Notes under the pieces: model-generated
What the model saw: only the letters and a program-made list of their open reading frames with translations
What the model was told of the DNA's origin: nothing
Database searches by the model: none
Made by a program: the position numbers and the translations under genes
From: Saprospiraceae bacterium
Lineage (GTDB): Bacteria > Bacteroidota > Bacteroidia > Chitinophagales > Saprospiraceae
Direction of reading: 5' to 3'
DNA: 64,000 bases
Assembly (NCBI GenBank): GCA_020628095.1
Contig: JAHDFP010000015.1
Span: 1-64,000 of the forward strand
In this document: positions 23,312 to 27,585 of the stretch, piece after piece
Layout of the letters: every line of letters begins with the position of its first letter
Numbering within the stretch: the first letter of the stretch is position 1

Positions 23312-24060
23312 CTACCTAAGATAAAGATATGAATAAAACGTTCTTATACTGTGGTGGTGTGTGGAGTGTATTATTTGCTGGATTGCTAACATGGCCCATG
23401 AAGCATGACAAGCACGTATAGCTAATAAAATGCGTTTTAGAGCCATTATGAGCTCTTTAATACCTATAATTTACTAACGCGTTTTAGGTTATAGCATAGA
23501 TGTATGATAGAAAATTCTGTCGTCACATTTTCTATACCTTTCATTACCGTATAGGTATAGCCGTACTGTCGTTTTATTGTGCCAAAGGGATGCTCCACGA
23601 TAGCTTGACGTCTTCGGTATTCGGTTTAGAGTGTTTTAAAGGCAATGGGGTTTTCCTTTCTAAAATTAGCTATCGTTTTATAACTTGGAGTTTGATTATT
23701 GAGGCCTCCCATCCGTTTACGGTTCGCTCATTTGAATGTCCTTGTGGACATTCACTCCTGCTTTAAGCAGGAGATCATTCATTCATACCACAGTTCTATA
23801 TTTCGTTTGCATTCTGCATGCAGTTTGCGTGAAGAGCACACAGAGTTAAGATAGCCATAGATATAAATTTTTATCAACGTAGAACAAGCATAGGCTGGTC
23901 TGCCTTCATGCTTATCTCCTTTTATTATAAATCCTAATTTTTGCGGATTAACACTTTCTACAAAGGCATCAATGACACGTACTAAATTGTCTTGCTCAAT
24001 TTTTTCTTCTAATGAAATCATCATTAATTGAGAGCGAGATGGAGAGATGACCAGTGGCAT
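23312..24060 (-). pseudogene. IS1182-family transposase remnant
   Basis: The N-terminus (24060-23779) reads LVISPSRSQLMMISLEEKIE, then NLVRVIDAFVESVNPQKLGF and KLHAECKRNIEL, the standard start of IS1182 transposases. Reading resumes after an insert with LNNQTPSYKTIANFRKENP (about 23640-23700). It then jumps to the family C-terminus, RRRQAIVEHPFGTIKRQYGY and EFSIIHLCYNLKR (about 23475-23620), so roughly the central catalytic part is deleted. A one-base frameshift near 23464 is followed by the last helix (KELIMALKRILLAIRAC) up to a stop next to the left terminal repeat. The gene cannot encode active transposase. Confidence 0.85.
23713..23787. repeat. Hairpin-rich ~75-bp insert in the transposase remnant
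   Basis: The insert separates two parts of the transposase frame. It contains CCGT-TT-ACGG, GAATGTCC-TTGT-GGACATTC (23734-23753) and CTCCTGC-TTTAA-GCAGGAG (23755-23773), followed by ATTCATTCAT. Two strong hairpins one base apart are typical of REP/REPIN-like or other small palindromic elements. No second copy was seen in this window. Confidence 0.65.
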
Positions 24061-24208
24061 ACGAACTCTTTTCTTTGCTCTTATTAAGATACGAAATCGA
24101 ACGATTATATTATTCCATTTCTCGGAGTTTTTGCACAGTCTGACGGAAGATGATATGTGGCTGTACGAAGTATGCCATCATATATAGTGTTACCAGCTTT
24201 TTTCTTTT

Positions 24209-25207
24209 TTACATTATCCCACTTGTCAATTGAGTTTCATCAAATCGCCAAAGGAATTTATTTGCTTTTTCTTCATTCTGATTTATAAATTCAATTGTTT
24301 TTTGTTTAATTAGTTTCTTGACATCTCTCTTAATCTTATCGTCAATTAAACTCTCTTTAAAGCTTCCGCCATAGATATAGCCCTTACCCTTTACAGTACA
24401 AACCAAGATAAGTCCATTATTGAATTTTTTCTTTTTGATTTTGTGGTTTTCAAGCTTAGAGTCTTTTACGTGTTTTCTGCAGCCACTTATTAAACCTTCA
24501 AGGATTCCATCAACCAAAGAACCTCCACAAACTGTATGTATCTCATTTGCAAAGCTTGCTATTTGAGTTGGAGGATGCCAATCTGTGCGATAACCAAGGA
24601 ATATTTGGTATACATTATCATTTATTTCGCCTTCAAATTCAATTTCAAATTTAGGCTTTCCTAATGCTTCAATTTTACATCTTTCATAGATGTATCTTAT
24701 TCCTTCTGGATAGGAATAAAATGATTGATTCAAGTATTTTTTGGATTCATCGGAGATTAGTATTTCTGATTTTCTATGTAGGTAGGCCATTTGAGTTGCC
24801 ATTTCATTTAGGTGAACAAAATCAACTCTTTTAATAGGAAACACTGTTTGGTCAAATGACCACTTTATTAGAAGTTTATTCTTTTCTCTTTTCTTAATAT
24901 TGAGTTTATTAGACAACGCTTTTAGGACACTGAAATGAAAGTTGTCCCTTATGTGTTCTGTTTCAGTTGTTGGATTTAACATTAACTCTGTAAAGTTGGC
25001 ATCTGATTTTATGACTATTTGATATTGATTGTTGTTAATAATGGTGAAATGAAAGAATATTTGTTCAGTATTCATTTGTTCAACCGAGTCAAGAAAAATC
25101 CCTTTGACCAAGTTTATTAGTCCTTTACTGCCAACCCATCCTAAATACATTCCAGGTCTTTTCCTAATGGCTTCTTCTCCTGATAATTGTTGAATTTTTT
25201 CTTTCAT
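24209..25207 (-). CDS. GyrB-like protein with degenerate ATPase, lacking Toprim
   Basis: This 332-residue protein resembles the first two domains of DNA gyrase B. Near the start it has GEEAIRKRPGMYLGWVGSKG, as in GyrB. In the transducer domain it has YPEGIRYIYERCKIEAL and IASFANEIHTVCGGSLVDGI, matching the GyrB SFVNNINT-EGG-H-GF phrase. The ATP-binding segment is altered: where GyrB has EVVDNxxDE, this protein has GIFLDSVEQ, losing the catalytic Glu and the Mg-binding Asn. The QTK lysine loop is not visible either. The Toprim domain is absent and the protein ends after the transducer. It is a cassette between attC sites B and C. It may interfere with or mimic gyrase; that is speculation. Confidence 0.75.
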   Translation of the reverse strand: MKEKIQQLSGEEAIRKRPGMYLGWVGSKGLINLVKGIFLDSVEQMNTEQIFFHFTIINNNQYQIVIKSDANFTELMLNPTTETEHIRDNFHFSVLKALSNKLNIKKREKNKLLIKWSFDQTVFPIKRVDFVHLNEMATQMAYLHRKSEILISDESKKYLNQSFYSYPEGIRYIYERCKIEALGKPKFEIEFEGEINDNVYQIFLGYRTDWHPPTQIASFANEIHTVCGGSLVDGILEGLISGCRKHVKDSKLENHKIKKKKFNNGLILVCTVKGKGYIYGGSFKESLIDDKIKRDVKKLIKQKTIEFINQNEEKANKFLWRFDETQLTSGIM

Positions 25208-25218
25208 CTAATTGCTGG

Positions 25219-25277
25219 TAACGGATAATTATATCCTCCGTGGCGACGAAGGAGCTATGGAGTGATATATAGTGTTA
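25219..25277 (-). repeat. attC-like site C
   Basis: This is the clearest of the four. TAAC (25219-25222) and GTTA (25274-25277) bound the site. The left arm ATATC-CTCC-G-TGGC (25231-25244) pairs with GCTA-T-GGAG-(T)-GATAT (25254-25268) to give 14 pairs including two G-T, with T25263 unpaired. The loop is GACGAAGGA. It lies between the stop of the 187-aa gene and the start of the GyrB-like gene. Confidence 0.75.
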
Positions 25278-25292
25278 GTCATAGTCCTTTCT

Positions 25293-25856
25293 TTAGAAAC
25301 TAAGTCTCTCCTTTAACTCTCTTAATTTTTCAACTTCTAAATTTTCCTCAATAAGATTTTCTATTTTCATTCTAAGTATTTCGCTATCAGGTTTTCTTTT
25401 TGTCATTTCGAGCTTTATACTGTTAATGTCAATTAGGTAATCTTTGTCAATTCCATCTTGTTCTTCTAATTCCTTTTTGATTTTATTTATTAGCTTTTTA
25501 ATCTTCTTGTTTTCGAATTCAATTGGATCTCTGACTTTTTCCCATTTATCGATAATTTTCATTATTCCCTTTTCCTCGAGATATGACTCAATTTTCTCTT
25601 GATATTCATCAGAAAGATTTTCAAAATATGAAATTCCTTTTGGTGTAATTGATGAAACAGTTCCACTTTTTTGAGGAAAGTGCAATAAGTAACCTTCAGC
25701 TCCTAACGTGTTCATTATGTCTATAACATCTCTTGACTGATAGCCTGCATCAAGCATTTCTATTGGCCAAAAAGGTGTTATTGCAAATTTCGGATCTGCT
25801 TTTTTAGTAAAATGGTATATGCCAATTACGTGATCTAAAAACTCTTTATACTCCAT
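25293..25856 (-). CDS. Cassette-borne hypothetical protein, possible winged helix, 187 aa
   Basis: I cannot assign a family. The first 75 residues read like a small winged-helix domain: DVIDIMNTLGAEGYLLHF, then strand VSSITPKGISYFENL, ending with the typical TPKG turn. The rest is strongly charged and likely coiled-coil (ENKKIKKLINKIKKELEEQ and the C-terminal MKIENLIEENLEVEKLRELK). The gene overlaps the retropepsin-like gene by 11 bases, so both are translated from one cassette transcript and probably act together. It could be a regulator or the substrate of the protease; neither is shown. Confidence 0.65.
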   Translation of the reverse strand: MEYKEFLDHVIGIYHFTKKADPKFAITPFWPIEMLDAGYQSRDVIDIMNTLGAEGYLLHFPQKSGTVSSITPKGISYFENLSDEYQEKIESYLEEKGIMKIIDKWEKVRDPIEFENKKIKKLINKIKKELEEQDGIDKDYLIDINSIKLEMTKRKPDSEILRMKIENLIEENLEVEKLRELKERLSF

Positions 25857-26292
25857 ATTTATTTATCAATTTAGTCTTTTTCAATTTATTGTTCATAACG
25901 ATTAAGTCAAATGTTTCATATCCTTTGTAATATCCAAGTAGTGAATAATTAATTTTCAAATCGTTTGCTAACGCTGCAACAATTTCAAAATCATACCCTT
26001 GAATTCTTAACGTTACTTTATAAACATTCAATTTTGTTCGTGAGTTTCCAAATATTAGTGGTGTAGTATCAAATGGCTCTATATTTTCAAATAGCTTCTT
26101 ATTTCTTTGATGGATGACAGAAATTGATGCTCCTGAGTCAAATATAAAACTCTCTGAAAATGGATATGATGTTACATTATATTTTGGAAATGTAATGATA
26201 GCAGGTATAATCGGGAAATAGCTTTTTGAGCACTTGGTTTTACTCAAAACATTTGATTGGATTCTATATTTTTCTTCTATTTCAATTCTCAT
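25846..26292 (-). CDS. Retropepsin-like aspartic protease domain protein
   Basis: The 148-residue protein carries the retropepsin active-site phrase FIFDSGASISVIHQ near residue 50, where D-S/T-G is the catalytic triad of one monomer, and the late ILG-type motif (SLLGYYKGYETFDLIV). Such single-domain proteins work as homodimers, like retroviral and SdpA-type bacterial proteases. No signal peptide is visible, so it should be cytoplasmic. It is the first gene of a two-gene cassette between attC sites D and C, preceded by 187 bp of AT-rich leader. Substrate unknown; the overlapping partner is an obvious candidate. Confidence 0.75.
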   Translation of the reverse strand: MRIEIEEKYRIQSNVLSKTKCSKSYFPIIPAIITFPKYNVTSYPFSESFIFDSGASISVIHQRNKKLFENIEPFDTTPLIFGNSRTKLNVYKVTLRIQGYDFEIVAALANDLKINYSLLGYYKGYETFDLIVMNNKLKKTKLINKYGV

Positions 26293-26479
26293 TTCTCAGA
26301 TACTGACTAAAGGTTAAATTGTTTTGTTGATTTTGAGTGATTTATATATGCGAAAATTAACAAATATTATTGATTTATCAGTTAGCATGATTAGTTTACT
26401 TCCCAATCTGAATGAGTAAAAATTGACATATTCTTCTTTCTATTTTTTTGGCGGCTTGGGGAGGCAGGGGAATTATGAC
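26293..26479 (-). other. Leader region of the two-gene cassette
   Basis: This very AT-rich stretch lies between attC site D and the retropepsin-like gene. No ORF or exact TAnnTTTG promoter is visible on the minus strand. A promoter of its own would be usual for a multi-gene cassette with a long leader, but I cannot support one here. Confidence 0.35.
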
Positions 26480-26540
26480 TAACGGATCGGCTATATCGGG
26501 AGTGCTGACGAAGGAGGCATTCCCTGATCATAGCATGTTA
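26480..26540 (-). repeat. attC-like site D
   Basis: TAAC (26480-26483) and GTTA (26537-26540) bound the site, and the stop codon of the 260-aa gene is inside the right box. ATC-GGGA-GTGC (26495-26505) pairs with GCAT-TCCC-(T)-GAT (26517-26528), 11 pairs with T26525 unpaired. Outer CTA/TAG (26491-26493 and 26531-26533) can also pair. The loop contains GACGAAGGA, identical to site C. Confidence 0.75.
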
Positions 26541-27320
26541 TGAGCTGGCTTTTTTCTTTTTTGTCCACATTACGTAAATATCGAATATTATGTAGCTTGA
26601 ACCTATTATTCCAAATATTAACAAAGGCCCAATTGATTTATCGTGATTCCATATTGCTATTCCAATAGCCCAAAAGCCTAAACTAAAGATATAAGCTATT
26701 ATCCTCTTTAAAGTATTTTTCAGACTCCATTCAGGTTCATTTTCTATTCTATCTTCTTCTTCCTTTAGCTTCTGAATTACTGTTTCATTTAAACTTTCAA
26801 TTTTGTTTGATATGTAATAGTAGTTCAGAAATGTATTTCTATTTTGCTTATTGACTCCGAAGAAATCTGGAACCGTAATAAAACCTAATTCCATCATACT
26901 ATTTATTAATACTTTATTCTTTTTTCTTTCAATTTTTATTGTTTGGGAATCTCTACTTTTCCAAGGATTGTAACCAGTAGCTACTACTTCATTCTCTTTG
27001 AAATAATCGATTCGCCAATTTAGTTTATTTGCTGCAGCAAGCACTGAGTCTTCAAATTCTTTATCAGTTCTTTGCTCGTTGATTTCATAATAGTTGAGTT
27101 CTCGCCATTTAAAAATCCCTATAATTAGGCTAATCAAAATGAATATTATTTGTGTTCCTACGGAGAAGGTGTTTACTGCTGTTTTGCCACTCAATTTGTA
27201 GAACAATTCAAATGCTGGAAACATTAAGGGAACAATGACAAATGAATAGTGCCCTAAAGTTTGCCAGAAACTTAGAGCTACTCTTTTATCCGATTTAATA
27301 TGATGACTATTTTTGTTCAT
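26538..27320 (-). CDS. Cassette-borne membrane protein, 260 aa
   Basis: The family is not recognised. Two pairs of membrane segments flank a cytoplasmic domain: FVIVPLMFPAFELFY and IIFILISLIIGIF at residues about 30-72, then about 130 soluble residues with PH-like or ferredoxin-like strands (IDYFKENEVVATGYNPW, QTIKIERKKNKVLINSM), then IIAYIFSLGFWAIGIAIW and LLIFGIIGSSYIIFDIYV near the C-terminus. It ends in a lysine-rich tail. The gene is the first cassette of the array on the promoter-proximal side. Layouts of this kind occur in many uncharacterised Bacteroidota accessory proteins. Confidence 0.7.
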   Translation of the reverse strand: MNKNSHHIKSDKRVALSFWQTLGHYSFVIVPLMFPAFELFYKLSGKTAVNTFSVGTQIIFILISLIIGIFKWRELNYYEINEQRTDKEFEDSVLAAANKLNWRIDYFKENEVVATGYNPWKSRDSQTIKIERKKNKVLINSMMELGFITVPDFFGVNKQNRNTFLNYYYISNKIESLNETVIQKLKEEEDRIENEPEWSLKNTLKRIIAYIFSLGFWAIGIAIWNHDKSIGPLLIFGIIGSSYIIFDIYVMWTKKKKASS

Positions 27321-27585
27321 CGTGCTTGCTCATAACTATCCTATATACACACCTTTTTTAAAAGGTACATCTATTTCCTCTATAAACCCACCCTTCTCTC
27401 CTAGAATTATTGGTATAGTGACTCTTCAGAAGGTACGTTATCTAATTTAAAGACTATTTGCAAGAGTGGTCTAAATACTTTAATACTTTCCATCCCCAGT
27501 TATCCACCCCTGTGGATAACAAAATAACCATTGCATATCCCGATTATATATCTTGATGTTTTTATAAGTAAGAACCTAATCTAAG
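27321..27585. other. Divergent intergenic region between cassette array and ndpA-like gene
   Basis: This 265-bp stretch separates the array from the conserved chromosome. It holds a lone GTTA (minus strand) near 27333-27336, where the array would begin, and a DnaA-box-like inverted pair near 27499-27520. No integrase gene and no ORF were found. Confidence 0.45.
27499..27520. promoter_or_regulatory. Inverted pair of DnaA-box-like sequences
   Basis: GTTATCCAC-CCCT-GTGGATAAC is a perfect 9-bp inverted repeat with a 4-nt loop. The minus-strand word TTATCCACA (27511-27519) equals the DnaA box, and the plus-strand TTATCCACC differs by one base. With only two boxes and no dnaA gene nearby it is unlikely to be an origin; it could be a DnaA-responsive site or just a hairpin. 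Confidence 0.4.

Follow-up and report, generated by a model that had tools for sequence, protein, structure and literature searches.

A cassette-encoded, apparently ATP-dead relative of the GyrB N-terminal half in Bacteroidota

Results

The gene and its cassette

We analysed a window of 64,000 nucleotides from a Saprospiraceae bacterium (GCA_020628095.1, contig JAHDFP010000015.1, positions 1 to 64,000), in which an intact open reading frame on the reverse strand (25207-24209, ATG to stop) encodes a protein of 332 amino acids (Table 1). The protein consists of a degenerate GHKL domain (about residues 1-158) followed by an S5-like transducer domain (about residues 159-332). The initial annotation, made from the sequence alone, had described a cassette-encoded GyrB mimic recognised by an N-terminal RKRPGMYLG and a transducer phrase and lacking the whole Toprim domain. 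The two signatures are indeed present, at residues 15-23 and 218-235 (SFANEIHTVCGGSLVDGI), and Toprim is absent, the frame stopping within the last helix of the transducer. Elsewhere in this genome the protein matches only two parts of a single 654-aa frame, which is the GyrB of the host.

Table 1. Features of the cassette chain and of the GyrB-like gene in the window
Feature	Position	Strand	Content or basis
Attribution of gene: stand-alone GyrB N-half-like pseudo-ATPase, 332 aa	24209..25207	(-)	ORF, Pfam, PDB profile, AlphaFold, Foldseek
GIFLDSVEQ, residues 36-44, at the position of GyrB EVVDNSIDE	25076..25102	(-)	alignment with 35 GyrB/ParE
GGSFKESLI, residues 280-288, at the switch (QTK) loop position, Lys284 kept	24344..24370	(-)	alignment
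First cassette of the chain, ends GTTATGAGC / GCTCATAAC	26537..27336	(-)	membrane protein ORF 26538-27320
attC-like spacer, first / middle cassette	26484..26536	(-)	hairpin z -1.4
Middle cassette, ends GTTAGTCATA / TATGACTAAC	25274..26483	(-)	ORF 25846-26292 and ORF 25293-25856
attC-like spacer, middle / GyrB-like gene cassette	25223..25273	(-)	weak hairpin, z -1.25
Cassette of the GyrB-like gene, start GTTACCAGC (25222-25214), end GCTGGTAAC (24197-24189)	24189..25222	(-)	9-nt exact inverse complement
attC-like spacer downstream of the GyrB-like gene cassette	24146..24188	(-)	hairpin z -2.0; IS1182 debris next

Three chained units, of which the gene forms the last, have self-complementary ends of 9-10 nt and are separated by spacers of about 50 nt. 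Exact inverse-complement ends are expected from the R'' and R' sequences of integron attC sites, and the term cassette is borne out by one or few ORFs lying between ends of this type. The end pair of the cassette that carries the gene was matched by none of 500 shuffles; a chain of three is by itself moderately unusual, 3 or more units being reached by 6 of 30 shuffles. The middle cassette encodes a protein with weak matches to retropepsin-like aspartyl proteases and an FDSGAS motif (ORF 25846-26292), and right after the last attC-like site lies a fragment of an IS1182 transposase (23779-24060).

A relative with 48% identity lies in an array of 12 chained cassettes in Aurantibacter aestuarii (L012:510-14338), which likewise has self-complementary ends of 9-10 nt and hairpin spacers and exceeds the shuffled maximum of 5 units. 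Spacer hairpins reach a z of -5.6 in Aurantibacter, whereas those of the window are weak. Directly before the ATG, the window gene and the Aurantibacter gene have the leader GTTACCAGCAATTAG in common, and GTTACCAGCAATT is found upstream in L008/L015, a sign that a cassette leader was inherited.

No integron integrase scored over the TIGR02249 cut-off in the genome of the window or in six genomes with relatives, and the array is therefore CALIN-like. Matches under this cut-off also turn up in every control genome, as expected of XerC/D. A consensus attC pattern and a DNA query detected no further copies in the genome of the window, and in a same-genus comparison for an empty site synteny was lost. 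Integrons have been reported as only rare in Bacteroidetes (IntegronFinder 2.0, PMC9024848); arrays like that of Aurantibacter, with no integrase over the cut-off, look under-reported in the Bacteroidota.

Homology and predicted fold

Judged from sequence comparison and a predicted model, the protein is a remote homologue of the N-terminal half of GyrB. Residues 189-319 match PF00204 (DNA_gyraseB) with E=2.5e-14 and 53.6 bits (cut-off 27), a gathering cut-off that is also passed by five other family members (L006, L007, L011, L012 and L017), L019 falling below it. NCBIfam gyrB models match at E values of ~1e-25 to 1e-29, best over residues 100-319, with scores far under their curated cut-offs: TIGR01059, the gyrase subunit B equivalog, gives 89.5 bits against 882, and with its end in the transducer the protein has neither the Toprim nor the C-terminal domain of that group. 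Solved GyrB chains were retrieved at E ~5e-12 with the single sequence and at 9e-37 with a family profile.

The AlphaFold2 model, built with an alignment of 12 family members, has a pLDDT of 87.8 and a pTM of 0.84, with low confidence at residues 78-86, close to the site of the lost ATP lid. Foldseek ranked GyrB/ParE ATPase-transducer structures on top (best E 1.2e-24, TM 0.76), with TM values of about 0.7-0.8 for GyrB/ParE and 0.80 for a GyrB model. Structure prediction and superposition, envisaged at the outset as a check on the GyrB likeness, thus agree with it, the predicted fold being GHKL plus S5-like transducer as in the N-half of GyrB/ParE.

With the 43-kDa N-terminal fragment of GyrB/ParE the protein shares fold, domain order, the RKRPGMYxG start, the transducer core (SFAN, GG, GL) and the position of the switch loop. 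In contrast to GyrB, to which it is about 25% identical (at most ~26%), the family lacks the ATP site, lid, Toprim domain and tail, has a short arm and carries motifs of its own (NQNxxxxPEG, RxDWxP, KxxNGLI and RFD). The truncated gyrase B of Myxococcus xanthus (3CWV, 369 aa) is likewise a stand-alone GyrB N-half and superposes on the window model with a TM of 0.70-0.74 (Foldseek), yet is only 17-18% identical. The fold is ordinary; what is unusual is a seemingly ATP-dead B-subunit half borne on a cassette.

ATP site and switch loop

In an alignment of the 12 family members with 35 GyrB/ParE sequences, the ATP site of the window protein is dismantled. As first described, GIFLDSVEQ stands in place of EVVDNSIDE, so that the catalytic Glu42 of GyrB is replaced by Gly36 and the Mg-binding Asn46 by Asp40, and the loss of the other Mg/ATP residues was also read correctly: DxGxG and the glycine-rich lid are gone, motif II (DNGRGIP) and the AGGKF...SGGLHGVG lid both being deleted. 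The GHKL ATP-binding motifs and lid of GyrB are thus missing from the protein. The initial annotation was mistaken in one respect, having counted the QTK lysine loop among the losses. GyrB F-x-G-Q-T-K-x-x-L aligns with Y-G-G-S-F-K284-E-S-L; the Q and T are replaced, and the loop and its lysine are retained.

These changes extend to the family. The lid is deleted in all 12 members and none has a usable set of ATP residues or intact ATPase motifs, the latter being what would have cast doubt on the alignment; L010 keeps the Glu and Asn of motif I and L006 also keeps motif I residues. Among nine close members, Glu42 is replaced by Gly in most, Asp occupies the Asn46 position in 7/9, and K or R is found at the Lys337 position in 7/9. 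Over the whole family, K or R occurs at the switch-loop lysine position in 10 of the 12 members, the exceptions being L017 and L019. The N-terminal arm is reduced or lacking altogether; the L013 protein, for example, begins with MTFEESVRKRP.

A rare and scattered family

We sought relatives in ~400 genomes each at the family and class level, and used a profile to scan single genomes representing each species. The former searches identified intact relatives in seven other genomes, and the latter added those of Aurantibacter aestuarii (L012) and Xanthocytophaga flavus (L017) together with L013 and L019. Where records of close members carry an organism name, all are Bacteroidota, and the members are scattered across the phylum. 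A search of 300 genomes from the family of Aurantibacter recovered, besides the known member, ordinary GyrB only, and we therefore consider the family rare as well as scattered, occurring in roughly 1% of genomes or fewer. When the phylum was searched with the profile at 1e-15, ordinary GyrB/ParE came up, and this search bears on the frequency solely through its lack of strong matches.

A single-sequence scan of genome contigs and a profile scan of viral contigs gave no relatives. Matches in BFVD were viral topoisomerases and RIIA-like proteins, and we recognised no viral counterpart of this pseudo-GyrB among them; weak phage matches were 22-24% identical. The plasmid matches that were inspected were rejected, being either full-length GyrB (L076) or a different stand-alone GyrB N-domain of 396 aa (L075:2941-4131, Streptomyces), annotated as 'ATP-binding protein', that keeps DNGRG. 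With motif II kept and the motif I Asn and lid altered, the Streptomyces protein represents a second, separate sort of stand-alone GyrB half.

Individual loci show further features. In genome G262, a 77-aa relic of the 3' end of a family gene is 60% identical (L005:1501-1731). One member (L019:7713-9101) has an N-terminal extension of ~89 aa with a sub-threshold HARE-HTH match (E 0.023), and the Xanthocytophaga locus includes a complete-looking Hachiman pair, HamA and HamB (L017:2509-5477).

The protein is real and belongs to a separate conserved family that had no earlier annotation. In a phylogenetic tree, all 12 members fall on one side of a branch apart from GyrB/ParE (support 100/99). Several rows of the tree are long-branched, so the inner order and exact placement of L007 are unsure. 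Codon differences between the window gene and its Aurantibacter relative amount to 0.36, 0.28 and 0.57 at positions 1, 2 and 3, the pattern of a translated gene under selection. The nine close members have 48 near-invariant positions, of which 5 lie in the first 118 residues, all common to GyrB, and 43 in the remainder. Family-specific positions make up 28 of these 43 (28/48 overall) and all lie in the second half; the changes include a charge change from GDDxREGL to KxxNGL and the RxDWxP and RFD motifs. By this distribution, constraint has shifted from the ATP domain to the transducer half.

Discussion

Proposed role and alternatives

The reading we favour, with a probability of roughly 0.45, is that of an ATP-dead pseudo-B-subunit that works by binding, its likeliest partner being a type II topoisomerase or its DNA. 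Such a pseudo-enzyme, carried on an integron-type cassette, would derive from the N-half of a type IIA topoisomerase B-subunit (GHKL plus transducer); it would neither bind nor hydrolyse ATP, and would act by holding a partner through the transducer half, where nearly all conserved positions lie. The more definite statement, that the protein modulates or protects gyrase or topoisomerase IV through such a partner, is tentative and on balance doubtful. A salt bridge between Asp40, in place of the Mg-binding Asn, and Lys/Arg284, at the lysine position that formerly sensed ATP, could stand in for the nucleotide and fix the conformation of the transducer; this lock is a guess from the alignment, in which both residues are retained together in six members. 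That cassette-borne pseudo-B-subunits of Bacteroidota regulate or protect gyrase or topoisomerase IV without ATP, a lysine-aspartate lock holding one N-gate-like conformation, we regard as unlikely in that full form.

No neighbour gene is shared among the family members, and no partner gene is visible. The net charge of the members is not consistently basic, so that it does not point to DNA binding throughout the family. Among the roles first suggested was that of a resistance factor; nothing connects the protein to resistance. Our literature search found no description of such a protein and no homologue of tested function, and in the relevant passages found in a review of protein gyrase inhibitors no GyrB paralogue is described (PMC10886550).

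A serious alternative, somewhat short of an even chance, is that the GHKL/S5 fold has been reused for binding or sensing with no tie to gyrase, for example in a regulator or a defence sensor for another protein or a small ligand. The dominance of family-specific conservation is in line with it, as are the extra N-terminal region of L019 with its HARE-HTH match and the position of the Xanthocytophaga member ~2.5 kb from the Hachiman pair; cassette arrays also often bear accessory functions. Against a sensor of this kind, PADLOC returned no match for any member tested, Hachiman is nearby at only 1/8 loci, and the HTH region of L019 is poorly modelled (pLDDT 54). A decaying, truncated copy of gyrB is barely credible: the protein is shorter than GyrB and a relic exists in G262, but ORFs are intact in 12 genomes, which form one separate branch with strong common constraint and a third-position bias, all in contradiction to decay.

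The GyrB-like fold would also suit a decoy that sequesters drugs, toxins or phage proteins aimed at the GyrB ATPase domain. Proteins that target this region exist, among them MfpA and Igy, a proposed DNA mimic (PMC10886550). Drugs of the ATP pocket, however, require a pocket that is gone here, and a decoy should retain the surface of its target, from which the family, with its low identity to GyrB and its 28 family-specific positions among 48, has diverged too far; a decoy is therefore improbable. Pairing with GyrB at the N-gate as a dominant-negative partner that poisons or brakes gyrase is compatible with the predicted fold and the retained switch-loop position. In GyrB, the N-terminal arm and the ATP lid both build the N-gate dimer, and the short or absent exchange arm and deleted lid of the family make such pairing very improbable.

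Precedents

For the pseudo-B-subunit that we favour, two known systems offer partial parallels. The qnrVC cassettes with attC sites show that a gyrase-acting product can be carried on an integron cassette (PMC2600354), but QnrVC is a pentapeptide-repeat protein of unrelated fold, and its action on gyrase is known whereas that of the window protein we infer. The GHKL fold of plant MTOPVIB is degenerate, and this protein, which lacks ATP binding, forms a dimer in the absence of ATP and binds DNA (PMC11077084). MTOPVIB and TOPOVIBL, the plant and animal meiotic topoisomerase VI B-like proteins, are also relatives of topoisomerase B-subunits; unlike the window protein, they are eukaryotic partners of SPO11 from the type IIB lineage, and the likeness is one of a way of working, not of membership.

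Implications

A B-subunit module that has the fold and the switch loop and seemingly no ATP would be a direct probe of what a transducer can do free of nucleotide. The family would also enlarge the set of mobile factors with a possible action on gyrase, which is an important target of drugs. Should it prove unrelated to gyrase, such genes are still likely to be mislabelled as gyrase subunit B by automatic annotation.
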